Shown here in pieces: positions 15,383 to 60,300 of a stretch of DNA of 64,000 nucleotides (the stretch's first letter is position 1; every line of letters begins with the position of its first letter). Origin of the DNA: Plicaturopsis crispa FD-325 SS-3 (taxonomy: Eukaryota; Basidiomycota; Agaricomycetes; Amylocorticiales; Amylocorticiaceae); assembly GCA_000827205.1 (NCBI GenBank), contig KN832555.1, positions 3,250,696-3,314,695 of the forward strand. Reading direction: 5' to 3'. The position numbers and the translations under genes are program-made. The notes under the pieces were generated by a model. The model saw nothing but the letters and a program-made list of their open reading frames with translations. It was not told where the DNA came from and ran no database searches.

Positions 15383-16559
15383 ATGGGCCCCAATGAATGG
15401 GAAAAGGTTCTGTGGAAAAAACAGGACTTCCCCGACAACTACATACCTCGGGACTCTTTTCTTTCTGCCTTGAAGAAGAACCGTAAGCAGATGACTCCGA
15501 AAGTATCATATAGCAATTGCAACAAGATACTGACCAGTCGTGTCTAGCCAATTTTAAACCATATACATACGGTCAACTGGTCATTGCCTCGTGTGCGATA
15601 ACGCAACACCTGGCGACAATTTATATCTTCCTGGCCGTCTTCCTGCGGCTCAAGGCGCGTACTTTGGACCCCCGAATACTGGTCTGGATATCCATAGGAT
15701 GCTTCGTCGTCGGATATACTGCCTGGGAACTCCTTGACCGTTCACCCGGGGACCGACGAGCCAACCGTATGTCGCCTCCCCGTTGACCCGCAATGCTATG
15801 CAATGATATTCATGCCTCATGCGCACGGCTACACAGGTGCCAAGACGTTGAAGTCATCAATACTTGTGTTCCTCGCGTTGATGTCTTTGTCCCCTGTGCT
15901 GAAGACTTTAACGGCTGCAACGTCTTCAGATTCCATATGGGCTCTCTCAGCTTGCCTGTTTGTCCTCAATGCTTTGCTAGCAGACTACAATACCGTGCAG
16001 CTGAACGGCAAGATACGCGAGCGGTGCATACATATCCTTTCTACGCTCTCTGTCGTTGCTCAATAAAACTTCTTACCCTAGGCTGACGTCGGTTCTCTCC
16101 ATAAATGCTGCTATATCGTCCTCGGTGGTGCTTGCTTCACGGCTCCGTGACGACCTCGCCGTCTTCGCGCTCATTCTATTTGCGGTGCAGACTTTCACGC
16201 TGTTCCCTATGCTCCGACATCGTCTACAGGTACGTACACCTCCCGTTTCTCTGATACTGTCATCTCATTGCTTCTTTTCTCACCAGGCAACGCCGACGGT
16301 GCTCCAGGCTATCTTGACCGTGTTTCTTTCTACCCTATCTGTTCTCCTCACGGCGCCGCTGTCAAGAACCGCCAGCCATCTACATGCCGCCTCTCTGTCT
16401 ACGGTCACATTTATCGCGCCAGCTGTTCTCGTATGGGCTCAGAAGCATAAAAAGTGCGTAGCCGTGTCGATAATCCATATCTTCAGTGCTCATGCCTCTT
16501 CCACGGTCCACAGTGAGATCAGAGGGCCATGGGACGTTGCCACCCCAAAGGTCAATTGA
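15383..16559 (+). CDS. GPI2: GPI2/PIG-C, subunit of GPI-GlcNAc transferase
   Basis: Six exons: 15383-15482, 15548-15766, 15837-16023, 16082-16229, 16287-16453, 16514-16559, giving 288 residues (human PIG-C 297). Landmarks are EWEKVLWKKQDFPDNYIPRD, FKPYTYGQLVIASCAITQHL, SPVLKTLTAATSSDSIWALS, LTSVLSINAAISSSVVLASRL, FTLFPMLRHRLQ and the terminal NEIRGPWDVATPKVN. It is a polytopic ER protein of the complex that transfers GlcNAc from UDP-GlcNAc to phosphatidylinositol, the first step of GPI-anchor synthesis. The start at 15383 gives MGPNEWEKV; since other fungi have longer N-termini, an upstream exon is possible. Introns are 57-70 nt. The identity is certain. Confidence 0.95.
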
Positions 16560-24066: not shown

Positions 24067-26887
24067 CTACTTCCCCTTATGCTTCCCTCCTTTCTTCTTC
24101 CCCATCCCGCCAATCGCGTCTCCTTTCTTCGCCCGTACACCCTCGCCCCGACCGGGCTTTTGCTTCTGCCCAAGATCCCGCTCAAACGCACCGCCAGTGC
24201 GGGAGGTGACCTTTTTGCGCGACTTTTTGTCCTTCCCCTTGGGTGGTCGTTTTTCTGGGATACCAATCTTTTGTGGGCGGGCTGCCTTCTTCGCGGAGCG
24301 GATGGACGCTGTGAGGGCGCGGCTGTCGCCCATCTCCTCGTCCTCCTGCATCGCGAGCTTCCGCCGCTTGGCCTTGCGGGAAAGGCCGGCGAATTTATCT
24401 CGCTTAGGCTGTAGCAGAGAGTATGTTTAATAACTTCGACAGCAGGTAGACGAAAAGAACTTACTTTTGGCGCTTCTTCCTCTTTCTTCGCCTTGCCTTT
24501 GGCAGACGAATCGAATCCGGCTTCATATTGCGACTTGCTGAGAGCTGTTGTGATATTTTAGATTTCAGTACAATCTAAACGGTGGGTTAATCCGTCAGCA
24601 CTGACCTTCTGCATTGGTCTTTTCTTTCCCAGTCTGGAACCATGTCCGCGCAGGCCTCGAGTAGATCTCGTCCTTGTGCTCGATGATGTTCTGGCCCTTT
24701 TTGAGCTCCATCTCAGCCGTGCGGAGCTAAAGAAGACGAAGACAAAAATATGATTCAGTCGTCAACCTCAAAGCGCGATAGAACAAGATAACCGACCTGC
24801 TTTTCCTCCTTCTCCTCGACGAGGATAGCGGACACCTCGCTCTTCAGCTCTTCGAGCTTGTCGACCCATTTTGAGAGGGCCTCCGCTGGCACGACGCGAT
24901 GCCGAATCTGGTCTTGGCCAGATCCGTGCTTGATTGCTGCTTTTAACATTTTACGGTCGGCTTCACCAACAAGGGTCACAGAGCTGAAGATAACGATGCC
25001 AGTTAGACAGGGAAGTGCATGATTGATAGGAGATAGTTGACTGCGCACCGTCCTTTCATTCCAGCACGAGCCGTTCGGCCAACTCGATGAAGATATTGGG
25101 CCAATTGACCGGGCATATCGTAGTTAATGACAGTCTCGATTCCTTTGATATCGAGACCACGCGAGGCGAGATCAGTCGCCATTAAATAATCTACCGATCC
25201 GTCACGGAATAACTGAAGTGCTTTCAAACGCTAAAAGCGCAGTGTACGCGGTCAGTGCCGCCCTCGTCAACATATACGCACTGTGCACGTACCTGTTCTT
25301 GTGATAAATCACCGTGCAGCTCCTCACACTTCATACCCAGCAGACTGAACACGATCCGCATCTGATGTGCGAGCTTCTTACTGCGGAGGAAGACGATGAC
25401 GTTCGTCCTGAATGTCCGTTTGCATAGAGCCACGAGAAGCGCCGACCGCTCTGCCTCCTTGCCCGCGCGCACGCGAACGAACTCCTGTATCAGCCCCCGC
25501 GCGGTGCTGCGCTTGGGGTCGACGAATATCCGCACGGGTTTGTTCAGGGACATCCGGACGAGCTCGTCGACGGAGTCGGTCATTGTCGCGGAGAAGAGCA
25601 TGGTTTGCCGCGACGTGGGGCAGGATTTGACGATTTCTGTCAGTTCGTCGGCGAAACCGTCGGAAAGCATTCGGTCGGCCTCGTCAAGGACGAGGATGTC
25701 GAGAGTGTCGAGAGTGAATGAGGGCGAATTTCGGATGTGGTCGATGAGACGGCCAGGGGTGGCAATCAAGACGTCTGGACGGCTACGAAGAGCGACCTCT
25801 TGGGACTTTACGGAGAGACCACCTGTTACACAGTGCCTGTCAGGATTTGGAATCAAACGGGGAACTTTTTCAAGTACGCACCAACGATGAGACAAAATCG
25901 GATATCAGTGTGAGCAGCGAGCTTCGTTCCAACTTCGAAACATTGAACGGCCAGCTCTCGTGTGGGTACTAGCACAAGACAGCGAGTTGCCGCCGCCTTT
26001 TTACCCTTGTCCCGGTATAACAGACGTTCGAGCATGGGTATCGTGAATGCAGCTGTCTTTCCTGAACCCGTGACGGCGCCTCCGACAACGTCCTTGCCAA
26101 GGAGCGCGACCGGTATGGTGGCTGCCTGGATAGGCGTAGGTTTAAGGAAGCCGAGTGTTGTGACAGCTTTGAGAATCGGCCGGGAGAGGTTCATGGTCAG
26201 GAAAGATGAGTGTGCCTCCGATGGCGCAACATCACTGTCGAAAAATGCAGCTTTGCGGTCTTTTTCGACCTGCGTTTCAGGCTCTGTGTCGTCGGATGAA
26301 GAAGAGCCTGCGTCCGACATGTCCTCGTCGTCGTCCTCATCCCCGGAGTCGTTGTGAGGCTTTTCGTGAGTATCATCGTCTTCATCGGATGTCGCAAGAG
26401 GGTCATCCCCGCCGTCGTTGCTGCCTTCTGCAACTTCTGCAAAGCCGTCCTCCTCCTCCTCACTTTGTTCCTCCGACTCATCATCCGCCAAGCTCTCATC
26501 ACCCTCGTCTTCCTCATCCTCGTCCTCGTCACTGCCGCTCTCGTCAACTTCACTCCCATTCCGCTTCCGTTTTAATGTGTGCGAATTTAATCTTCGTCTT
26601 GCGATAATATCGTCAACGGATATAGGTTCCTGGTACAATTCAGTCGTACGTTCTACGCAAGTACAAACATGACGCACCGGTTTCGACCCTTTCTTCACAA
26701 GGTCATGTAAGCCATTTTCTGCCTCTAGTATATCAGCGTAGGGGTCTCCAGAGACGTCGAAACTGAAGTCGGGGTTAAGATGCGCATCCTCGGCGTCCTG
26801 GACTTTGCCAGACTTTGCGGTGGTTTTTTTGGGGGGCACCTCATCGTCGTCCGAATCCAAAGTCATGATAAAATCATCGGGAGCCAT
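24067..26887 (-). CDS. DRS1: DEAD-box RNA helicase DRS1 (DDX27), ribosome biogenesis
   Basis: Eight exons: 26678-26887, 25882-26629, 25293-25822, 25049-25230, 24797-24983, 24606-24726, 24465-24544, 24067-24408, giving 799 residues. The N-terminus holds a long acidic Asp/Glu/Ser tract (about residues 110-205). Helicase motifs are Q ([15 protein letters not shown]), I ([11 protein letters not shown]), Ia (PTRELAVQ), GG, Ib (TPGRLIDH), II (VLDEADRM), III (SATMT), IV, V ([11 protein letters not shown]) and VI ([10 protein letters not shown]). The C-terminal tail is basic and coiled. Drs1 acts in the nucleolus on 60S pre-ribosomes. The 48 nt stretch 26630-26677 has good splice ends and joins [16 protein letters not shown], but being a multiple of three it also reads through. 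DRS1 and FunK1-1 are divergent. Confidence 0.95.
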
Positions 26888-27378
26888 TTCAGCACGACAA
26901 GACGTGGTAAGGAGAAGCTTTAGGTGCCAATGGATAGTAGGACTCGGAGGACAGTCTCAGCAAAGTTTCAGCCACTCGATCGTGTTGCGACAAAATTAAT
27001 AGAATATTTTATTCAGTGACCAGTAAAATAGTACACGTGACTACTTTTTCCAGTGCGACGCGTCGGTGGCAAGCGACGCTTTTCTCTTTCCTGGGTTAGA
27101 CGGTCCATTTTTTAATGAAATGAGACTCAAATGTGTGCGGCAAGGTAGAATATATCCTCGGCGTTCATGCTCTTAGTAGCGGGAGCGTATGTTCGAGCTT
27201 CAAGGACTCGGAGGAACGCTTTGGTGGCATGAATCACGTGTAGCATGCCACCAAAGCGTTCCTCCGCCTTGAGCCATTGTCTGAACGCGCCCGAACCGTC
27301 TGTCCATTGTCTGTTCCGAATAAATATAAGCACTCACGCGTCGCCTTTCCCCGTGAAGTCTCCCCGAATGTTGACACC
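26888..27378. promoter_or_regulatory. Divergent promoter of DRS1 and FunK1-1
   Basis: A 491 bp region between opposed starts at 26887 and 27379. It holds the perfect inverted repeat at 27210-27265 with CACGTG in its loop, and a TATA-like TAAATATAAG at 27321-27330, about 50 bp before the kinase ATG. Confidence 0.55.
27210..27265. repeat. Perfect 22 bp inverted repeat with 12 nt loop
   Basis: Arms 27210-27231 and 27244-27265 are exact reverse complements, starting GGAGGAACGCTTTGG. The loop 27232-27243 contains TCACGTG. Imperfect pairing (TCAAGG/CCTTGA) extends the arms outwards. It could form a cruciform or, if transcribed, a stable hairpin. Confidence 0.85.
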
Positions 27379-29998
27379 ATGTCCAAACGCTCGATCGACG
27401 AACTGGCACCTGCGGAGCCTAGTGCACTGCCTACGACTCCCAGCCCAAAGAGAAAAAGACCCAAGCCCACGCCTCAAGACCCACCTGGGGAACAGAGCGA
27501 CGGAGCGACGCTAGACGAAGCCACGGAGCCCAATCCCAGCCCCATGAGAAAGAGGTCCAAGGCGAGCTCGAACGACGCACCTAGCTCGATCCCAAAAGCA
27601 AACGAGAATCGTCGTGAGCTTGATGATGAGATGCGAGGGACCTGGGTGGGACCTATGCCTGTTCACGAGTTCCTCGAGAACTTCATGCCCGCTGCCGAAA
27701 CACCGCGCCCATTCCACAGCCGTGCAGAATGGAAGGCGCTATGGTCCGCGGTTCCTATCGGGAGGAAACCAGAGTGGAAGATGTACCAGTCGATCGTAAG
27801 CGTCGACCTTCACGTCCTTCGGCGCATCTTGAAAGCTGACACTGTAGTATTTTCACTGTGATTAGATCGACGCGATTGAGAAGAGCGGACTGTCCCCACA
27901 CCTGAAACTCGTCAACACGTCGAACAAGCACGACCGTCTGTCGGAGGAAGGCCACCGAATCCGACCGGATCTGACATGGTACAGGCGCAATCTGCTCGCG
28001 AGTCTTGGGGACAGTCTCCAATGGGGACACAGCTCTGGATATGTTGAGGTCAAGCCCAGCTACCACGGCGATCCTGTCGACGACCTGTGCGACCCAGCAC
28101 CTCGCGAGCCTGAGGCAGGCCAACATGGTGAATCGACGGGGCCTCAACCTCATCGGCCGGAGTCTACTCCTAGCAACAGAACGAAGCCATTCACGCCCCA
28201 AACAGATATCAGCATAAGCGAAAGAGGCCAAATGATAGCATACAATACCGAACTGTGCGATTACCAGCATCGCAACTTCGCGTTTTCACTCCTGTTCATG
28301 GGAACATTCATCAGACTCTTCCGGTGGGACCGTGCTGGAGTTATCGTGTCGCAGATATTTGACTACCAAGACGATCCTAACTTCCTGGGGGAGTACCTGT
28401 GGCGATTCAACCACATGACGGATTCTCAGCTTGGCCTCGATGGCACCGTTCGCAACGCAGACAACAAGGAAAAATTACTCGCCAAAACACATCTGGGCCC
28501 TCATATCTTCGACCGTAGCTGCCCTATTTTCCACATCGACGGTCCGGAAAGCAAATGTTTCTTGGTCTGGGAACCTATTATGCGGCCGCTTTCGCCTCTC
28601 GGTCGGGCCACTCGTGCATATGTCGCGTTCGAAATCGCTACGGGGAAGGTCGTGTTCCTCAAAGACGTGTGGCGAGTTGATCACCAGCAGTGGCCCACGG
28701 AAGGATTCATACTCGACCGGCTCAACGCGAAGGGTGTTCGAAATATCCCCAAGGTAGAGACGCACGGAGACGTAGACCCAGGCTCGCTCGGAGTGACCCA
28801 GTCGGACAAGTTCGCTAGGAAGGCATGGTGTCTCGGTGATGTGGCGGGTATCATACCACGCAAGCACTATCGTTTGGTGACAGCGTTTGCTGGTGTTCGT
28901 TTGCGGCACTTCAGAACGGGGAAGGAGTTGTTGACGGCTGTGTATCACGCGATGATTGGCGAGTTTTCCTACGCTTCCGCTTAAGCGTACACCTCTCATA
29001 CATTGCCTTATTTTATATAGCCCATGAAGATGCGCTCAAGCACTGTCAAATCTTACATCGGGATATCAATGCCAACAATATTCTCATACGCTGGGATGAG
29101 AAGAACGAGGCCCGTGGCACTCTCGTTGACTGGGAGTTTGCCAGGACACCCGAAGAGCTTCGGGTCGCTCGCTTAGACCACACCTCACGGTTTCCTCGTT
29201 CGGTGCGGCGGTCTTGCATTCTTTCTTGCTGTTTGGATCGATGGCCTGGCTTATTTTGCCTCTGCTATCTAGGGAAACTGGCAGTTTTTATCCGTTCTCG
29301 TCCTCAACTTCGGCAAGGCGCATGGTCCAAAAGGTGACTTTGAATCATTTGTTCATGTGGTCATGCACCTAGGAATGCGCTACCTGAGACATAACTGCGA
29401 GACCAACATTCTTACGGTGTTCAAAAATCTCTACGACTCCACCCTCGAGGAGGAAGGCAAAACCGTTGGCGGAACCGGCAAGCAGGACATGTTCCTATTC
29501 AACAGACATATCGGAGAGGGCTTCAAATTCAACCTACCTGGAGCGAGACCTCATCCCTTGACAAAATTCGTGGATATCGCGTTCGACATCGTGAAGACCT
29601 GGCTCGTACCTGTCCTTTTCCCCCACGTTGCCGAGGTCCCGTCGAAGGCTCCTACGAGTGCTCTGACTGAGGCCATCGCCTCGCTTCTGAGCAACGAAGA
29701 CTGGCCGCAGGACGACAAAGTCAGCGATCAGCTTAAGGCGGCGCGCGAACGTACGAGGCCAGTCCCACCTCGCCACGTCACGCCGGCTAGGGCCCGGTTT
29801 AGCTCTGGAGGGGATTGTGACGAAACTCGCGACGACGGCTATGCTAGCTATGGGACTCGAGAACTCGAGAACAGTGTTCGACATGGATCCGGGCAGGGAG
29901 CGAGTGGCAGCTCCAAGCAGATGTTCAGCCAACTAGACTCTGTAAAGGAGGCAGACGAGTACTCTGCGGGCAGCGACTCGGAGGACTCGGAGGCATAG
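27379..29998 (+). CDS. FunK1-family protein kinase, copy 1 (805 aa)
   Basis: Four exons: 27379-27795, 27866-28958, 29021-29202, 29273-29998. About 100 N-terminal residues are low-complexity and rich in Lys/Arg/Pro (SPKRKRPKPTP). The FunK1 region follows: RPDLTWYRR, YVEVKPS, HRNFAFSLLFMGTFIRLFRWDRAG, GRATRAYVAF, VVFLKDVWR (candidate ATP-site Lys), the catalytic loop HRDINANN near residue 516, and LVDWEFAR in place of the DFG segment. FunK1 is a fungal-specific kinase-like family expanded in mushrooms; substrates are unknown. The tail is Ser/Glu/Asp-rich. The second intron (28959-29020) starts with GC; the same junction in copy 2 uses GT. The first Met at 27277 would add 34 residues from the promoter, so 27379 was chosen. 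Confidence 0.85.
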
Positions 29999-30699: not shown

Positions 30700-32878
30700 A
30701 TGTCGCACAAACGCCCTTTATCCTCCTCGTCCTCCGCCTCATCCTCATCCTCATCCTTGGGAATGTCGAGAAAGCGCCAAAAGACCGACACTTCACCCTC
30801 GAACTCTTCGTCATACGCGTCGTCCTCGTCTTCGAACTACTGCAGAGGCGTGCCTATGCCAGAACAGCACAGAAAGGATTATCTCTCCCTTGAGCGGGAG
30901 ATGCACGATCGCTTCCTTGGCTTCATCGAGCCACCAGTCTTCCTCGCAGAGTTTCTCCCTGAAAACGCAGTACCCTGTCCGTATGATGTCAAGCGAAGTT
31001 GGAAATTGGTAGCTGCCGCCCATTCGGGCGCATACAACTGCTCAGATCTTGTGAGTTGATTTGCCTCCTCGTAGTTTCTCTCTTGACGATCGCCGCCACG
31101 ACAGGCCCACGATATCTCCAAGTCTGGTGTCTGTCCCAGTCTAGATGCTGTCGACACGCACTGTATTCGCTCGATGCCAGACATCACCATGGCTCCTCCC
31201 GGTTCCACCATCACCGTCGATTCACGGTGGGGCGCTGTCGAAATGTGGCTTGTTCTGCTCAAAAATATCAAAATGGATCCGTTCGAAGAGTTCACCGACC
31301 CCGACGCGAAACCATCTTCCAAGGTCGAAAAGGCAGCTATACTCCGAGGCGAGCTAGTCGCGTTCGCTACAGACATTCTATCATTTCAAAATCGCCATTT
31401 CATGTTCTCTGTCCTTGTCATGGGCAAATATGCGCGCTTCATACGTTGGGATCGTGCTGGTGCAATCGTATCCGCTCGCTTCGACTACGCCAATGATCCG
31501 GACGGTTTCTTCGCCGATTTCATGTGGCGGTTCAGCCACATGTCACCGGAGCAACGGGGCCGTGACACCACCGTTCAACCTGCCACGCCAGAGGAAGTCG
31601 AATTGGCGAAGCGGGGACTCAAGGACTTCGCCGACGACTCGATTCCTATTCTCAAAATCCGCCACAGCCGCGACGGGAAGACCGCCGATTTCCTGGTCTG
31701 GAAGCCACTGGACTCGCCCTGCTCCCTGCTCGGTCGCGGGACACGCGCATACGCTGCGCTAGATCTTCAGAACGACAATCAACTTGTGTTCTTGAAGGAC
31801 GTCTGGCGGCCTGACCACCGCGATTGGCCCTCTGAGGGCTCCATTCTCCGGAAATTGCAGGTGGCACGTGTCCGCCATATCCCTGAACTATTATACGAGG
31901 GCGACGTCGACAGCATATATGCTCGAACACGAACGCAATCGTATGCCCGCAAGTATCGGAAGAATGGTTTCACGATCGTCGCACATGTCCTGGTACATTA
32001 CCGCCTGGTTACTTCGTTCGATGGCCTCCCTCTCTCCCACTTCAGGAACTCCAAGGAGATGGTGACAGCCGTCTACCATGCGCTGCTTGGTGAGTGCCTC
32101 CTACTGTACCCTCCGACGCACGGCTGACCTGGATATGCATAGCCCATCAGGATGCCGCAGAGATATGCGATGTCTTACATCGGGATATCAGTGACAACAA
32201 TATATTGATCAGACGAACCGACACCGGCGAGGTCCATGGTACGCTTATCGACTGGGAATTTGCGCGAAAGCGAAAAGCTCTAAGGGCTGCCTCCAAATCG
32301 GGCGCTCCTCGCTACCCCCGAGTGGTGAGCCGTTGTTTTACACCGCTATTGCCTGCGTGCTCTGACGCCGCATCTAGGGTACATGGCAGTTCATGTCGTG
32401 TCTTTTGCTCGGTGACCCCGACAAAGTCCACGGGATAGAAGACGACATGGAGTCATTTATACACGTCCTCATGCACCATGGTCTACGCTATTTCGAGCAC
32501 AACTACGCTGGCAACCTTCGTAGTGCCTTCCAGCAAATCTACAACCACGCGTACCACTCATGTGGGGCAGTCCTGGGCGGAGACGCGAAGATGAACCTGC
32601 TCATGTACAGGGCGTTCGTTGGACATCATTTCGCGTTCACGTCGTTCGGCCCAGACGAGCATCCGTTAACAAGAATTGTTACCGCTGCAATGAACGGCAT
32701 GCGGGACCGCCTTCTGCGATTTTCTTATGCGGCCTACTGTCCGGGCAAACCGTGTCTGCTAGTGGAAAACGACCACGAATTCGAATCACGCGACCTGTCG
32801 GACTTGCTGCTGTCCGCTTTGGACAAGGGCGTCTGGCCCGAGGACGACAAAGTGGGCGATCAACTAAACTTGTGGTGA
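30700..32878 (+). CDS. FunK1-family protein kinase, copy 2 (672 aa)
   Basis: Four exons: 30700-31050, 31105-32089, 32143-32324, 32378-32878. A Ser-rich basic N-terminus (MSHKRPLSSSS) leads into the same core as copy 1: ILSFQNRHFMFSVLVMGKYA, FIRWDRAGAIVSARFDY, GRGTRAYAAL, LVFLKDVWRPDHRDWPSEG, catalytic loop HRDISDNN near residue 458, and LIDWEFAR, followed by GTWQFMS and an FIHVLMHHGLRYFEHN helix. All three intron positions and phases match copy 1, and exon 3 is 182 nt in both, so the pair arose by tandem duplication. The acidic C-terminal extension of copy 1 is missing here; it ends at DDKVGDQLNLW. Kinase activity is inferred from the retained HRD and Asp residues only. Confidence 0.88.
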
Positions 32879-40975: not shown

Positions 40976-42109
40976 ATCCCCGTGTTCGTCTTACCAGGAC
41001 CATGTACCGGAAACCATTGTATTCTCATCTCTCCTCCGTTTCGGCTATTCGTTTTTGTTATTACCTATCCATCTTCATATTGGGATACCCCACCGCACAT
41101 ATTGTCATTTTCCTCGCTTCTCTTTACGCTAACGCTATCGCTCGTTTTCTGTACCCGTTTGTGCTGATCACTGAATTCATTCGATTGCAACCGATTCTTT
41201 CTACAGTTAACCAGCTTTGCGTTGTCAGGATCAAGGCCTCAAGCACTCAAGCACTCAAGCAAGACTCAAGCCACGGCGTCCAAGAACAAGGCTGTTTAAA
41301 CTACAAGACTGCTCCCAACCTGCGTTATCAAACCCTTCGCAGTGGTCGATATGATTCCCCCCTCGATTGCTCCCCTCTCCTCGCCTCAAAGTACGAACCT
41401 CAAGATTTCCGCAACGATTGCTCTGTTCCCGCCAAGCGACCGAGTCGCTGCTTTCTACTCGACTTCAATCCCTCAACTTGAAACTATGTACGGTTTACCG
41501 TCTCGGCGTTTTGTGACTACTGAATTTAGAACATGAGACACTCTGCATCGCCCCGTCTCCGTCTCCGAGTCCCGCGCCTGTCGACGTTCAATCAGCAAGC
41601 ACATCCACACCTTCAGGCAATACGAAGCAAATCCTCCCTCGGTGGACTATGTCCTTCGCTTGTACTTAGTGCTGTTGGAACGCGCGTCAAATTATGTATA
41701 CATATTGAAATATTCTTAGGCAATGACTGTTCGTCGTGCGCGGGTCACCGTTCACCGACCGGCGACAGCTACCGTTATACTACAGTACTCCGTCATGATG
41801 CAGGTACAAACATGTAGCCATGCACTTAAGCAATGTATAACTGCTGCTTTATGATAACACCCAACGAATAGCAAATGTCATCTCATGCCAAGGCCCTCTC
41901 GCGCACTGACGCGTTGTACATCTCGCAGTCTGCTCGACATGCTTCAAAGCCCAAGCCCCCACCCAAGTCAACTGTGTTCGGCACTTCTCAGAAGTGTGTA
42001 GAGCACCCTTGTAACAAGAGACCATCCCAGAATCCATTTGCTGCGCATTTCTTCCGTGTCGAGTGACAGGAATGACGCGCGCAGCAAAGAAGAAAAGAGA
42101 GATCCCCCG
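40976..42109. other. Spacer between RasGEF and the U2 gene
   Basis: About 1.1 kb, mostly 3' flank of the RasGEF. Three tandem CTCAAGCA units lie at 41238-41261. Open frames at 40969-41481, 41533-41817 and 41875-42066 resemble no family. Nothing else was seen. Confidence 0.4.
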
Positions 42110-42352
42110 ACGACACAAGCCAGTAGTGCAGCGGCAAGGTCATCACGTCCCCGTCGTGCAAGCAGAGGACAGGGAGCAAGGGCGGCAAAAATAAGATAAC
42201 CAAGAATGGAGGCGGTGCCTCCATAATAGTGGTTAAACTGCGAGAAAGAAAGGTAAGTAAAACGATCGCTGGAGGGCTCGAACCCGCGCCTAATGGCTCA
42301 CCTATTAAGAACAGATACTACACTTGATCTAAGCCAAAAGGCCAGAGTGGTA
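42110..42352 (-). ncRNA. U2 spliceosomal snRNA gene, interrupted by an intron
   Basis: On the minus strand the near-universal U2 5' domain GGCCTTTTGGCTTAGATCAA is followed by GTGTAGTATCTGTTCTTA, which holds the branch-site-pairing GTAGTA. The first part, 42302-42352, ends TTAATAG. A GTGAGC...CGCAG intron of 64 nt follows (42238-42301), and the second part starts TTTAACCACTATTA at 42237. Joined, TAATAG-TTTAACCA-CTATTA forms U2 stem-loop IIa. Next come the IIb-like hairpin TGGAGGC-ACC-GCCTCCA (inside a TAACCA/TGGTTA stem) and an Sm-like TTATTTTTG near 42190. A GCTGCACTACT loop fits stem-loop IV near 42130. The mature RNA would be about 180 nt. Both ends are estimated: the 5' end by alignment to known U2, the 3' end from the last stem. 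Confidence 0.88.
42238..42301 (-). other. mRNA-type GT-AG intron inside the U2 snRNA
   Basis: 64 nt. The donor is AG|GTGAGC and the acceptor is CTTTCTCGCAG after a pyrimidine tract. CTTAC, fitting the fungal branch consensus CTNAY, lies about 18 nt before the acceptor. Its removal restores the U2 IIa stem exactly. Confidence 0.85.
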
Positions 42353-42379: not shown

Positions 42380-42386
42380 TTTTATA
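42380..42386 (-). promoter_or_regulatory. TATA box of the U2 gene
   Basis: TATAAAA on the minus strand, about 30 bp upstream of the estimated U2 5' end at 42352. Confidence 0.7.
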
Positions 42387-42972: not shown

Positions 42973-43809
42973 TCATCGGTAGCGACGCAGGCTGAGGGTG
43001 TTGTGCTTCTTCCAGGTCGACCGTGCGGGGTTGTGGTTGTGGCGGTGACCCTTGCCGAGTCCACGGTTCTGTAGAGATCACAGGTGAGTACAAGATCGAT
43101 ACAATAGAGAAAGAAAAACGTACCTGCTTGCCGATGGACGTGAGGCCACGGGCCTCGCGGCGCTTGTGCACGGGGTTTGCGATCCAGTTAATCCGGGCAT
43201 CGCGACGAATCTGAGGCCAGGCCATGAGCAATGCACGAGACCGAAAAAAAAGATCGGGCAACATACAGCTTTGTGGTTGGGGTCGACAAGGATGACCTCG
43301 TAGTACTTGTACACACCGTCCTGGTTTACCCAGTAGGAGTTCAAGACCCGCAAGTTACCGCAGCGCTTGCCCACACGCTCCTCGGCGGTGCTCCTGAGCC
43401 CACGCTGGAACTTGAGGTGGTTGACACCCTGGCGGACGGGCTTACCGAAGGTCGCACCTAAAAATTCGCTGTGGTTAACGAATGCAAACGGCCAGCGCGA
43501 ATCGCAAAAACGCACCCTTGGGGACGGCCTTCTTGCGGTTACCGCGGCGGACACGGACGCGGTAGACGACGTAGCCCTGCTTGGCCTTGTAGCCGAGACG
43601 GCGGGCCTTGTCGGGGCGCGAGGGGCGGGACGCACGGTGGATGACGTTCAATTGGCGGTATTCCCAGCATCTGTAAACCCACGGGATGAGAAAAACGATG
43701 CAAATCGCTGAGGAGAAACTGCTGCAACGCACCGAACGCGGAGGAGGAAACGGAGGACATCGGACTGCTTCTTCTTGTACAGCTCACCGATGTATTTGTA
43801 TGCGCCCAT
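42973..43809 (-). CDS. RPL15: 60S ribosomal protein L15 (eL15)
   Basis: Five exons: 43733-43809, 43516-43670, 43267-43457, 43124-43210, 42973-43068, giving 201 residues (yeast and human 204). Landmarks are [99 protein letters not shown] and the basic tail [20 protein letters not shown] ending RRYR. eL15 binds 25S rRNA in the core of the large subunit near the exit tunnel. The five-exon layout with introns of 55-62 nt is ordinary. The identity is certain. Confidence 0.97.
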
Positions 43810-44167
43810 GGCTGCTGGAAAAACGGGAACAGCGTCAATCTAAAGCGTAACGTCGAAGCTGGAATGCGCCAGAAATGCAGCGGTTGCTCACCTCTTGACG
43901 GGTCTTGATATTGGCGAGTGCTAGCCTCAAATCTCGTTGTTGATGATGCTGGTGTCCTCGGAATAAGGTTTGCCAAATTTCAAGGTCCGACGGAAAACGC
44001 CGACTCCTTTCGCGAATTAGCCCCTATTTACTACTGCAGCAACTTTACCCCAGTCGCGATTGGAGTCAAGACAGAGTATGATATCGTATCGCAAACGCAT
44101 AAATATCGTTTGAAATCTAGTGGTACATACAGTTGACGAACGAGAATCTTCGACTGAATATTATCTA
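43810..44167. other. Promoter of RPL15
   Basis: About 360 bp between the RPL15 start and the stop of the MFSD1-like gene. A pyrimidine run on the minus strand precedes RPL15. No gene was seen. Confidence 0.45.
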
Positions 44168-46360: not shown

Positions 46361-47592
46361 TGGGGGTATATATGCAATGAAAGCGAACGCTCTACTGGAA
46401 CTGGATGTTGAAGGAGGAGGAGGACATGAAAGTAGAGAACAGGAGGAGAACGGTAAGTAAAAGTCAGGAGATTTATCAGATAAACGGTCTCCATCTGGTT
46501 CCGGTTCCGTCTAAATTACAAGTTCTCGACTCTCGGCCGACGCCTTTGCAGACTGTTTTACACCACTTCACAATGTTCACATCGTTCTACAGCCCGTCTG
46601 AGCCCGCCATGTTCTGGACAGCAACTAGCAACTCCTCTGGTTCAATTTTCTTCTCGTACAGCGAGGCAAGACATGGCGATGTGCAGCCGTTGGGAGCAGA
46701 GAACGGTGCACGTCGGCGCCACTAATTGTTTACGATCATCGCGGGAGCCTTCGCCGATACACGCCTACAGCAGCAAGGACTCCAATATCTCTCAAAGGGT
46801 TATGCTCTGCTAGCGAGGGAGTAGAGGGGCCCCGCGATTCACCCGCAGTCCGAGAAGTTGTTGCAGCACAAGGGATCGGGGGCCGCGCCTGCAGGTGCAG
46901 GTGGGATTGCTGGTCTACTCAAGTCTCACCCTATCTACGTCGATAATGACTCAAATCAAAAGACCTGGTGGATCACCTTGCCTGGGGGTATCTACCAAGC
47001 ACAGACATCGACTACTTTGGCATGCTCAGCCGGGGTGCTCTGTGGATAGGTCGTGTGCCCTCACGAGCCATGAGGTTAGCGAGGAGTCGAGGACTTATGT
47101 AGATATGCATCTAATCGTTAACGCGCTCACCATGATGGCTACTGGGACTTGTCAACGAATCTCGGCTGCAAGGAAGGATGATGTGCTGTTCACGAACAGC
47201 ATAGGGCAGTGCTATGTCAGAGCTAGGATGAGTATGAACTGTGCCAGAACACACATATGATGAACGTCGACAATGAATATATGCATTGGGCGAACAGACC
47301 GGTGATAAAGCAGATGCTACAGTAGATAATGTCAATGCAGAGCTCGCTAAACCTTCAACAGCGTCTTACAGCTGTAAGTATAGCTTGAGACGTTCACTCG
47401 GAGGTTACACGGAGATAATTCATGAATAAATTTGTCAACATGGTTCACGATGCCGACGGCGCGTGGATTATCTTGGCGCCCAAACCGGCCGTCAAAGTCT
47501 GTCCACGACCGTCGCAGGCATGGCAAGGCTCTTGCACACAACTTATACCTGCTATTCTACTCTCGTCGACTGTACCATAACATACCGCCGCC
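46361..47592. other. 1.2 kb intergenic region between divergent genes
   Basis: Lies between the MFSD1-like gene (minus) and the lipase gene (plus). Open frames at 46405-46725, 46858-47260 and 47111-47335 have no family resemblance. A perfect 14 bp palindrome CTTACAGCTGTAAG sits at 47365-47378. No RNA gene was seen. Confidence 0.4.
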
Positions 47593-48823
47593 ATGTCCCT
47601 AAGATTCAAACGGCGGGCGAGCACCGAGACGCCAGAGGCCAAACACATGTACGCCTCCGAACGCCTCATGAACTTCCGTTTCATCGCAAAGTGTTTTGCA
47701 ACGCACGCCGCCCGACCACTCACCCCTGCGGAACTCGTCGACCCCGCCCTCGAGCAGGCCCTCGGCGAGGTTGGCCAGTTCGCAGAGGTCTCCTACGCCG
47801 CTGCCCTCTCCCGCGTCCTCCGCCTCGAGTTCGTCTTCCAAAACCTCCCCATGCTCCTCCAGCCCGACTGGCCCCTCGAGGGCTACGACGCTCTCGCAGA
47901 GCTCCAACTTGTCGCATCGTTCCGCGGGCGCACGGGTGACGTCCCAGGCTACGTCGCCTACCGCGCAAAGTCCAAGGAGCTCGTCCTCGGCATCGCGGGC
48001 ACGTCCTCCCTCACACAAGCCTGGTACGACGTCCGCGCGCTCATGCACCCGCACCGCGCTGGAAAAGGATGCAAGGTCCACACCGGCTTTTGGAAGCTGC
48101 ACAAGGGCTTGAGAGCGCTCGAGGTCGACGCCCTCAAGCAGGGCCTCGCGGCACACGACGTCCAGCGGGTGATCCTCACCGGCCATAGTCTCGGCGGCGC
48201 GCTGTCCTATCTCCTCGCGGTCGACATCCTGCGCGATCCAGATATTCTGCCCGCTGGAATTCCCGTCACCGTCGCTGTATTCGGCGCCCCTCGGTGCGGC
48301 AACTCGAAACTCGTCGACTGGTGGGAGAAGGCCGTGGGCACTTACCGGCAGACATACGGAGACGAAGCTTTCCAGGAGTACTCCGTCAAGGCGTTTAACG
48401 ACGGTGCGTTTCCTCCCCTCCACTCTTGTCATTGCTAAACTATCACCCCCAGGCGTCCCCGCGATCCCGCCCACAAACATGGGCTACCGGCACTTCGCGA
48501 AGCGGCCGCTCTACTTCGTGTACGGCCGCCTGTACCGCATCCCGGAGGCGGACCACGAGCACGCGCTCTTCGCCGTGCAGGACGCGGACGAGGCGCGGCG
48601 CATGACCGCGTACCCGCGCGGCGGGCACAACTACTACGGTGGGCGCGACCTCGAGCGCTTCGAGCGCCGCATGGCGTGGCTCGAGGAGCTCAAGACTGGC
48701 GGGGACCCAAAGTGGGCGGAGAGGTACGTGCGGCGCGTGGAGAAGAGGGAGCGCGGGTGGATGAGCAAGATGAAAGATAAGGTACAAGAGAAGGAGAAGG
48801 ATATTTCGGAGGCTCTCCATTAG
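47593..48823 (+). CDS. Class 3 lipase-like alpha/beta hydrolase, 393 aa
   Basis: Two exons: 47593-48403 and 48453-48823, joined by a 49 nt intron. The nucleophile elbow GHSLGGALSYLLA carries the catalytic Ser near residue 200. VLGIAGTSSLTQAWYDV is the oxyanion region of the class 3 (Rml-type) lipase fold, FGAPRCGNSKLVDWW contains the conserved FGxPRxGN, and the DHEHALF/GGHNYYGG region at the C-terminus supplies candidate catalytic His. No signal peptide is seen, so an intracellular enzyme on acylglycerols or phospholipids is likely. The C-terminal 60 residues are charged and helical (KMKDKVQEKEKD). The 293-codon open frame on the opposite strand is a GC-rich shadow. Confidence 0.9.
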
Positions 48824-49042
48824 ACCCACCGTCCGTTCGTTTGTTCGTAGATTACATTGCTTTGCATTTACTGTAGCCATCTAATTTATCATCGGTCTGT
48901 TGTCGGACTATGCGCACAATACATATAATCATTGTCGACGTTCATCGTATGCGTGTCTCGAGCTGGTGGAATATCTCCGGAATATCTCCGTGCCACCGTC
49001 TCGGAGTCTTGAACGCGTCACCGTAAGTACTTAAGTACCCCC

Positions 49043-50046
49043 ATGTTTCGCTCGACCCTCCATATTCAGCGCCTCGTACGAACTCAGAGCCTGCGTTTCT
49101 CACTTGCTCCCCGCCGCCATGTACTTCGGACCCCGTTCTCGACATCCGCTCCCAGTTTGAACAAACCCGCGAATTCCCGCAAAGGCCCGCCGCCGCGGTG
49201 CCCGCAATGTGACGCACCGCTGCCATCACCGCTCCCGGCGTGCCCCAAATGCGCGTTCATAGCGGTTCCACGCACCGCTACATACCACTCGCTGTTTGAC
49301 CTGCCGTACGAGCCTAATCCGTTTGTGGTCGACGCGGCACGGCTCAAGGCGCAGTTTCATGTCGCGCAGCGGGTGTGCCATCCGGACGTCTGGGCGGGCA
49401 AGGTGCGTGTGCAATCCTTCTTCAGAGGTGATGTATTTGCTGAAAGGGGTACTATACAGGGAAAGCAAGATGCATCGAGCGAGCTATCTACGTATGTGAA
49501 CGAAGCATACCAGACGCTCTTGGACCCGTTCAGGCGCGCCGAGTATCTGCTGCGACTGCACGACATCGAAGTCTCGGAGACAGACCAAGTAGAGGATATG
49601 GACCTGCTCATGAGCATCATGGAGGCGCGCGAGGAGATCGAGACGGCTGGCCCAGATGATGCCGCCCTCGTACAGGACGTTGCGAGAAAGAACCAAGGTG
49701 AGTGCTAGCACTTTTCCAAGATACGCCCGAGTGTTATTGCGCGCACACATCTTCGGACACCAGTTGAGGCGGCGCCCTGACGAATTACTGGAGCGTTCGT
49801 CCAGTCCAGTCCGCGGCCTTGGCCATGGCATTTGGACGCATGCGGCTGTACCGGAGCCATACCTTCACGCGTGTGCTAACCAATCTTGACACAGAACAAA
49901 TCGACAAATTGTGCGCAACCATCGAGAGATTAGTGGGCGAGGAAGATTGGGTCGGCGTGAAGGACGCGACCGTGCGGCTGAAGTACTTGCAAAGTATTCA
50001 AACGGCCGCCAGGAAGTGGCCCACCATCGAGAACGACGAGCACTGA
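49043..50046 (+). CDS. JAC1: Mitochondrial Fe-S co-chaperone HscB/Jac1
   Basis: Three exons: 49043-49402, 49460-49697, 49895-50046, giving 249 residues. The basic N-terminus (RLVRTQSLRFSLAPRRHVLR) looks like a mitochondrial presequence. A four-Cys knot follows (RCPQCDAPLPSPLPACPKC), as in human HSCB but absent from yeast Jac1. The J-domain is YHSLFDLPYEPNPFVVD...HVAQRVCHPDVW, with the HPD that stimulates Hsp70 ATPase. The C-terminal HSCB domain is a three-helix bundle (YQTLLDPFRRAEYLLRLHDI, then MEAREEIE). It delivers Isu-bound iron-sulfur clusters to the mitochondrial Hsp70. The last intron is 197 nt, long for this region, but no extra exon was needed. Confidence 0.94.
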
Positions 50047-57373: not shown

Positions 57374-60300
57374 CTACGACCCAGCCTTGAGCGGTGACTG
57401 TACCAGTCGTTGGACTTCTGCGGCTACGGCCTCCGACGTACTCCGCACTGTCAATCGACATAGCTGATTGAACATATAGTCGTCAGTCCAAAACCCAAAC
57501 GTTCGACGATGGAACGGACGTACTTTCGCTTCCTTGTTCGGTTCCAGTCGCAGTAAGCACCCCACCTTGCCCTCAGTAGACATGTGGAGCACGCCCGCGG
57601 CAACGATATTATTTGGGTTGGGGTCAATGTCGTCCAAGACACCGAGTTTGTGCCCGGAGACCACGTTGCGGTTCTTCGTAAGATCCAATTGCCCGCCCGC
57701 CGTTAACTCAATCGGGAACACATTCTGAGCCTCTCGTGGAGGGCCTCCAATGAGTTTCCAGCGCTCGAAGAAGTCGGCCTGACCGAGTTTCACGTGCTCG
57801 AAGAACTTTGTGACGACGACGGGTAACCGAACGGCGATGCTTTGGTGAGAGCCGGCCAAGAATGATACGTTCAGTATTGGCGGCGTGGTGAACATCTTCT
57901 TGCACTCGACGTGCAGTAGTTGCTGAGTCTGTGTCCGGGGCGCGATTTTACTCGGGGGTAATTTCGCAAAGGTGACGGATAATGCGTCAGGATCGTGGAC
58001 GTGCAAAGTCGTAGTGAATGATGTCAAGGGGGCGTCAACCTTGTTGCCGATGTAGACCGCTACCTGCCCAATATGACCCTGGTATCGCGACTTGATGCCG
58101 ATCTGGATTTGGATATCTTCGTACAGCACGCCTTCGGGAGTGTACGTGAGTTTGTCGAACCAACGGTCTACCGTAGGGCCGACGGTGAGGCGGGGAATGT
58201 TCTCGGCTACCGGAGAGGTTGTATGTGCGGCGTCCGAGAGCGTATTTGAGGAATCGGGGTTTCCTGCTATACTGAGACCTGCAAGAGAGCCCATAATGTC
58301 TTCTGGGCCTCCGTTCGCAGTCACCCCAGTCCCGTTGGTTTCGACCTTCGAGGACTTCCGCCTTGCGGGATCGCGATCGAGATTCGCCTCTTTCCCACCG
58401 TGGACCCAAGTCCTCTTGTCTTCGGTATCCCCTGCCTTCCGATTGAGGCGTCCGAGTAGCGCGCTAGCACGAGGCGGGAAGGGAGGCATTTCCTCGCACA
58501 CGTTTTGTAACGTCTCATCATCGTCCGGGCGAGAGGCGAGTGCGTAGAATTCGCAGGCTCGTTGCTGAAGCTCTGCATCTAGCACATGGCGGTACCGCTC
58601 GAAGATGTTGAGCAGTTGGGGTTTGATCTCCGGGAAAACGTTGACCCATTTGATGTAGGTCGAGAGCAGGAGTGCACGGGTAGATGCGACACAGAATTGA
58701 GATTTGGAGTGGAGGATTTGGAATTGTTCGACAGGGCTGTACCCCGGGTCGTTGGCAATAAGATGGCCATATTCACCAAGAATGTAACCTGAAACAGGCG
58801 TAAGCCAAGCTGTCAGTGGACGAGTATGACATGCTTTACCTCCAACCTTGACAAGACTTTCGTGCGTCGAGGGGGCCTTCAAGTGCTCCACAATCACTTT
58901 TGCGGCGTACGCTTGTAGGTCCTCGGTGTTCGTAATGATCTGGACAACACGGTACCAGACCTCGTCGCCCACATGATCACCAGCGGCGCTCATGAGCTGC
59001 AGGATGGTGTCGACATACCACTTATACGAGCTGGCATATTTCTCCGTCAAAATTGCGATTTTCAGCACCATCTCCTCCCGTAGCGCGTAGTCGGCTATCC
59101 GCAGATACCGCAGGAGCTCCCCGACGATAACCTCGGAGTTATCTACGTCGCACATGCTGTAGAGGAGATCGAGCGCACGCCGGCGGACTGATATGTCTTT
59201 ATCGCGGAGAGACAATATAATTGTGCTCTGGTGCTTCTTGATTGGCTCTAGAGAGTTTGCACGAGCGGCTAGGTGCGCCATCGTATCCAATCCTAGATAC
59301 CGCACGTTCGTCTCCTTCGACGAGATAAAGCGCGCAAGAAGGACGGCAGCAGTGCTGACGAGAGGGGAGCTGGCGTCGATGTGGATAGCAAGGCCTATAG
59401 CCTCGAACAAAACGGCATGCTGGGCATTATTATGCTGCACGTTTCGCGAGGGTTCTGCACTGTTGTTCATGGTAGTGTGTAGAACCTGGTACAGCGCCTT
59501 CTGAATAGTGGGGTCGTCTGCGAGATGGTGAGTGGGAGTTGCAATACAAATAGTGTGGGCAGACAGACCTGAGGGGGGATAGTATTGTAGGAGTCGTAAT
59601 AGTTTGACTTGTAACCAGGGCGTAGGCACTTTGTAGTACGCATAAGTCGCTGCATATTCGTGGTCAATTACGAGCTACAAGTCGATCAGCAACAATTCAA
59701 CGGGGAAAAGAAGACTGTCCTTACACGGTATAATCGGTCGACAGCTTTAGTGTAGCACACAGCGAATGCGTCAAGATGATCCTGGGCTAGCGCCATGACC
59801 AGACTTGTCACACAGATTACCACACCCTAATGAGAGTTATGCCGGTGCACAATGTATTTTTATTGCAGCAGACTTACTAGATCCGTATCATCCATGATGG
59901 CCACTATCCGCAATGCCCATTCTGCGGCAGGAATGACGTCGGGATGTTTACGATATAGCCTGAGCAAGGTCAGGGCTGCCTTCTTCTTCACAAAACTCTG
60001 GGAAGTCCTAGTCAACGAGTCAGAAGTTCGGTCTCCCCCACAGAGTGTAAGAGCTAGGTAAATGACACGCACGGTGAGATGAGTAAGCGGTGGACGTCCT
60101 CCGACAGTGCTTCTGCCATCTCGCTCCCTCCTACATTGGCAATGGCGTGCAGGGCTAAGCAGTTGTCAATCTCATTATTTGCGTCGAGGTCTTTGCGGAT
60201 AGAATTGACCACGAGACGTAGGAAATCCGAGTTCTCGTGCATGAGCAGAGTGACGGCTAAATATCCCTGAGACGTGCATCTTATTGAGTACCACTCGATG

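Follow-up and report, generated by a model that had tools for sequence, protein, structure and literature searches.

The U2 Locus and Its Neighbours

The window, by which we mean the whole stretch of 64,000 nt that was analysed, carries on its minus strand a gene for the spliceosomal RNA U2. Positions 42353-42101 (-) match the Rfam family RF00004 with a score of 94.7 bits (E 1.1e-17), the gathering score being 46, and the model is covered from end to end, positions 1-192 of 192; no other Rfam match in the window reaches its gathering score. The gene extends from about 42351 to 42101 (-), the homology placing the 5' end of the RNA at either 42351 or 42348. Its full-length match is broken by one insert only, which agrees with an initial annotation of this DNA that described a minus-strand U2 interrupted by 64 nt. 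Without the insert the joined RNA is 187 nt long. The match GTGTAGTATCTG at 42323 (-) marks the branch-recognition region, exon 1 ends in TCTTAATAG, and exon 2 begins with TTTAACCACTATTA. The elements of the locus are collected in Table 1.

Table 1. Elements of the U2 gene and the adjacent RPL15 gene, in window positions.
Feature	Position	Strand	Basis or remark
RPL15 (eL15) gene, five inferred introns of 55-77 nt	42973..43891	-	Pfam PF00827, PDB matches, spliced 201-aa reading
TATAAAA box	42380..42386	-	35-38 nt upstream of the likely U2 5' end; from sequence, putative role
U2 exon 1: stem I, GTAGTA, IIa 5' arm	42302..42351	-	RF00004 alignment and sequence
Branch-site recognition sequence GTAGTA, exon 1	42321-42316	-	intact
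Stem IIa 5' arm TAATAG, exon 1	42307-42302	-	
64-nt GT-AG intron, GTGAGC...CGCAG	42238..42301	-	insert against U2 model, splice signals, register check
Putative B box GGTTCGAGCCC, match to Pol III consensus, inside intron	42274..42284	-	pattern search
Branch motif CTTAC, branch A at 42254	42253..42257	-	branch A 16 nt before intron end
U2 exon 2: IIa loop, IIa 3' arm, IIb, Sm-type site, stem-loops III and IV	42101..42237	-	RF00004 alignment
IIa loop TTTAACCA, exon 2	42237-42230	-	
IIa 3' arm CTATTA, exon 2	42229-42224	-	
Stem IIc, TAACCA (42235-42230) with TGGTTA (42202-42197), both arms in exon 2	42197..42235	-	pair table, compensatory changes
Sm-type site ATTTTTG, exon 2	42192-42186	-	intact

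The next gene upstream, about 620 nt away and on the same strand, is RPL15, whose spliced reading runs from start to stop. Other reading frames in the window match the C-terminal part of GPI2 (16005-16556, +), a DEAD-box helicase (25227-26956, -), a class 3 lipase (47581-48435, +), the C-terminal domain of HscB (49013-49705, +) and the alpha subunit of the AP-2 complex (57374-59671, -; best PDB match 6owt_A, E 2.4e-154). Two more, at 27866-28981 (+) and 31087-32124 (+), match the Pfam fungal protein kinase family PF17667, a family that is expanded in mushroom-forming fungi. The initial annotation had spoken of a "mushroom-type" genome; in this analysis, these two reading frames are the one basis for that wording.

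The Insert as a Probable GT-AG Intron

The insert has the layout GTGAGC...CTTAC...CTTTCTCGCAG, with a pyrimidine stretch ahead of the terminal CGCAG, and the boundaries first proposed for it, 42301 to 42238, turned out to be exact. It had been described as lying inside stem-loop IIa. The location is right, but the stem itself is uncut, as the insert falls exactly between the TAATAG arm and the loop that follows. In a chance test, 1,000,000 random 64-mers from the window were placed at the same junction and every equivalent register was counted: GT...AG occurred in 6,751 of them and GTRNGY...YAG in 240, while CTNAY, as a branch motif lying 10-40 nt before the end, was present in addition in 74.

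A register check asked the same of the joined product. When 12,741 removals of 30 to 130 nt were scored by the number of IIa pairs (of 6) and of U2 consensus identities (of 23), all six IIa pairs were obtained in 24, and at least 16 of the 23 identities as well in just three. These three are equivalent registers of a single product, one of them being GT-AG. When only the scorable GT-AG removals in this size range are considered (n = 6), a single one restores the six pairs. Two removals, offset by one or two bases, gain one identity over the GT-AG product (17 of 23) but keep only five of the six IIa pairs. That joining restores the IIa hairpin TAATAG/CTATTA, as had been claimed, is thus borne out by six of six pairs in the joined RNA.

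The introns of RPL15 can serve as a yardstick, albeit one taken from a single gene. Four of them interrupt the coding sequence and measure 55-62 nt; the fifth, in the 5' leader, is 77 nt long and is proposed from its motifs only. Their donors are GTGAGC (leader), GTGCGT (two introns), GTATGT and GTACGT, and CTNAY is found 14-16 nt before the end in three of the five and is absent in the other two. The U2 insert falls within the range of these introns, and the GTGAGC donor is common to both genes.

Taken by itself, the insert is about as stable as its shuffles (z 0.27). Pairing between its 5' splice site and its branch region (-9.0 kcal/mol) is the strongest among the four introns compared, but it was rejected as a special feature because the window has 740 13-mers with CTNAY, of which 118 pair with this donor equally well or better. 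The branch-recognition sequence of this U2 pairs only weakly with the branch site of its own gene (-3.3 kcal/mol).

Comparison with Other U2 RNAs

A scan of GTDB genome contigs with a 23-base U2 core gave four stretches, L001 to L004, from three contigs. The contigs stand in bacterial assemblies, one under the name Trichormus and one under Deltaproteobacteria; because of their other RNA genes, with U1 in two of the three and 5S rRNA together with histone 3' elements in one, we regard them as stray eukaryotic DNA. L003 and L004 come from a single contig, where they may show the same gene twice, the U2 of L004 being truncated. A fifth core match, L003 770-792 (-), was excluded from the pair table as below the gathering score: the surrounding U2 fragment, L003 694-826 (-), has kept the 23-base core and little else, and scores 20 bits against the gathering score of 46. 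The same core gave no match in the viral contigs scanned, and the U2 locus, compared in distant mode with plasmids and with phages, had no match in either set.

An insert at the place of the intron is absent from the U2s of L001, L002 and L003 and from the truncated one of L004. All six pairs of stem IIa are standard, both in the joined RNA of the window and in the four comparison stretches, and its loop is 8 nt long in the three full comparison U2s as well as in the truncated one. For stem IIc the count of pairs is 6 in the window, 7 in L001 and 8 in L003, while L002 forms 8 of 9. In the third and fourth pairs of IIa both sides differ between the window and the comparison U2s, and in IIc the pairs U-A, A-U and U-A of L001 and L003 correspond to C-G, C-G and A-U in the window. 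Compensatory changes of this sort speak for selection on the gene, although they rest on a few distant sequences, L001 to L003, which are eukaryotic strays in bacterial assemblies, no fungal relative having been found.

Folding of the Precursor and of the Joined RNA

The insert had been taken for a spliceosomal intron of U2, and its sequence speaks well for that reading. The added statement that the unspliced RNA cannot form IIa went too far: the precursor contains both arms, which are paired by the covariance model in spite of the intervening insert. What stands of it is that the folding energies strongly disfavour such pairing. With IIa forced, the unspliced 5' part is predicted at -35.6 kcal/mol against -45.1 kcal/mol when free, a cost of 9.5 kcal/mol, compared with -24.4 against -28.3 kcal/mol, or a cost of 3.9 kcal/mol, for the joined 5' part. 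In the unspliced 5' part the predicted pair probability is 0.83-0.93 for IIc and 0 for IIa; joining brings IIc in the 5' part to 0.91-0.98, and IIa in the joined RNA to about 0.007.

It is worth pointing out that minimum-energy folding does not serve as proof of IIa, as it fails for the joined RNA too. Since it picks no IIa even there, the case for this stem rests on comparison and not on energy. According to PMC8516221, IIa and IIc are mutually exclusive, IIa being stabilised by SF3B1 and SF3B2 and IIc being adopted once SF3a/b leave, and the protein-free human U2 is also found in IIc. Because the human RNA behaves in this way, the IIc preference of the joined RNA is not odd. In the present gene exon 2 contains the whole of the rival stem IIc, so that the precursor can form it, a possibility missed in the initial annotation, whereas the 5' arm of IIa lies in exon 1; the precursor is therefore predicted to sit in IIc. 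From this layout and the folding energies together, splicing may be the step that licenses the RNA for SF3b.

A Putative B Box in the Intron

The intron also contains GGTTCGAGCCC, a putative B box that matches the consensus of Pol III genes. The motif is also given as GGTTCGANNCC. Depending on strictness, the forms of this pattern are expected 0.0008-0.015 times per intron, the upper figure being that of the loosest form, GWTCRANNC. Counted along the precursor, the match stands at +68; it is preceded by an A-box-like TGGCTTAG at +16, and the gene is closely followed by TTTT at +256. L001 and L002 carry TGGCTAAG at the A-box-like place, so TGGCTTAG is best regarded as ordinary U2 sequence. A relic of a tRNA gene in the intron was considered and rejected: ARAGORN finds no tRNA gene in the window, and around the gene, between 41500 and 43500, there is no match to the tRNA family up to E 10.

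Weighing the Explanations

The gene, its insert, the splice signals and the covarying structure that joining restores are all present at this locus, and they are best explained, with high probability, by a working U2 gene with a single ordinary GT-AG spliceosomal intron in its precursor, placed where the IIa 5' arm meets the loop. A U2 that keeps the 64 nt in its mature form, as an enlarged IIa loop, would make use of the fact that both arms exist and could pair across the insert. Nevertheless, it would leave an exact donor, branch motif and acceptor at the homology boundary to a chance of 74 in 1,000,000, it would have to bear the higher folding cost of IIa in the unspliced RNA, its insert is no stabler than shuffled sequence, and the loop would depart from the 8 nt seen in every comparison U2; we consider it hardly credible. 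The gene could instead be a dead or silent copy, with another gene supplying the U2 of the cell. U2 is commonly multicopy in other eukaryotes, and the decayed 20-bit fragment in L003 tells us that U2 relics do occur. The present gene, however, matches the model over its full length with the branch-recognition sequence and the Sm-type site intact, has compensatory changes in both IIa and IIc, is preceded by a normally spaced TATA box, and possesses splice signals for which an inert insert would have no use. This makes the silent copy very unlikely.

A further question is which polymerase reads the gene. The B-box match could be functional, with TFIIIC and perhaps RNA polymerase III acting on the U2 gene in the way proposed for the U6 intron of fission yeast. 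The order of the elements would suit such a reading, from the TATA box upstream through TGGCTTAG and GGTTCGAGCCC to the T run past the 3' end, and a B-box match has been reported in the U6 introns of Schizosaccharomyces, as the title that PMC10484740 cites for Frendewey et al. 1990 indicates. On the other hand, the A-box-like stretch belongs to normal U2, the B-box motif was noticed after the fact with the looser forms expected 0.015 times per intron, and TTTTT occurs at +161 within the gene, at the Sm site and before the RNA end. A run of five T should end Pol III transcription early. We therefore regard a working intron B box as unlikely, and Pol II as the likely polymerase of this U2 gene. 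A combined version, with TFIIIC (perhaps Pol III) brought to the gene by the B box and with splicing turned by the place of the intron into a licensing switch that acts on an IIc-only precursor, is very unlikely; if it were true, the output of U2 would depend on U2 activity at two levels, promoter and folding.

Returning to the spliceosomal intron in a working gene, we infer the following course of events. RNA polymerase II would most likely read the gene from the upstream TATA-type start, and an existing spliceosome, itself containing U2, would remove the 64 nt by way of the GTGAGC donor, the CTTAC branch and the CGCAG acceptor. The joined RNA of 187 nt could then take the normal U2 fold, and splicing would at the same time be the step that gives the RNA access to the IIa form held by SF3b. 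As the intron is of the spliceosomal type, new U2 would need old U2. This dependence would hold equally for the U2 of Rhodotorula hasegawae and the U6 of fission yeast, and although it seems real in logic, it should not be paradoxical, as cells inherit U2.

Comparison with Known Introns in Small RNA Genes

An intron in U2 would create a loop in which U2 is needed for making U2. Introns in the genes of spliceosomal RNAs also bear on the question of intron gain, by reverse splicing into RNAs that reside in the spliceosome. Should relatives turn out to share the present intron, one could tell from its age and position whether U2 was hit repeatedly, and its place exactly between the halves of the IIa/IIc switch makes the barring of an unspliced snRNA from SF3b a testable idea.

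The closest known case is that of R. hasegawae, a basidiomycete with an mRNA-type intron in its U2 gene, as the initial annotation had noted; it is on record as Takahashi et al. 1993 in the reference list of PMC2586383, and the species is now placed in Erythrobasidium, Pucciniomycotina (PMC10876860). The intron described here is a further, rare case of this known kind, and in the open-licence literature we found no U2 intron besides the one of R. hasegawae. It stands 14 nt past GTAGTA, at the boundary of the IIa arm and loop. The R. hasegawae intron is said to be about 60 nt long and to follow immediately downstream of the branch-site recognition region, and its position thus seems to be a different one.

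Two other small RNAs offer useful parallels. The U6 gene of Schizosaccharomyces pombe, which likewise codes for a spliceosomal RNA, is also interrupted by an intron of the mRNA type, and the title cited in PMC10484740 places a B-box match inside it. U6 in that yeast is a product of Pol III, whereas U2 is normally a Pol II transcript of the Sm class, and the gene here has five T at its Sm site. The U3 snoRNA of fungi is again a structured small RNA with GT-AG introns near its 5' end, and these are reported broadly across Basidiomycota with a mean distance of 15 nt between branch and end (PMC5832005). U3 introns come without self-dependence because U3 is not part of the spliceosome. Compared with all of these, two features of the present gene are new: a B-box match within a U2 intron, and an intron that parts the 5' arm of IIa from a complete IIc, so that the unspliced RNA is predicted to be in the IIc form.
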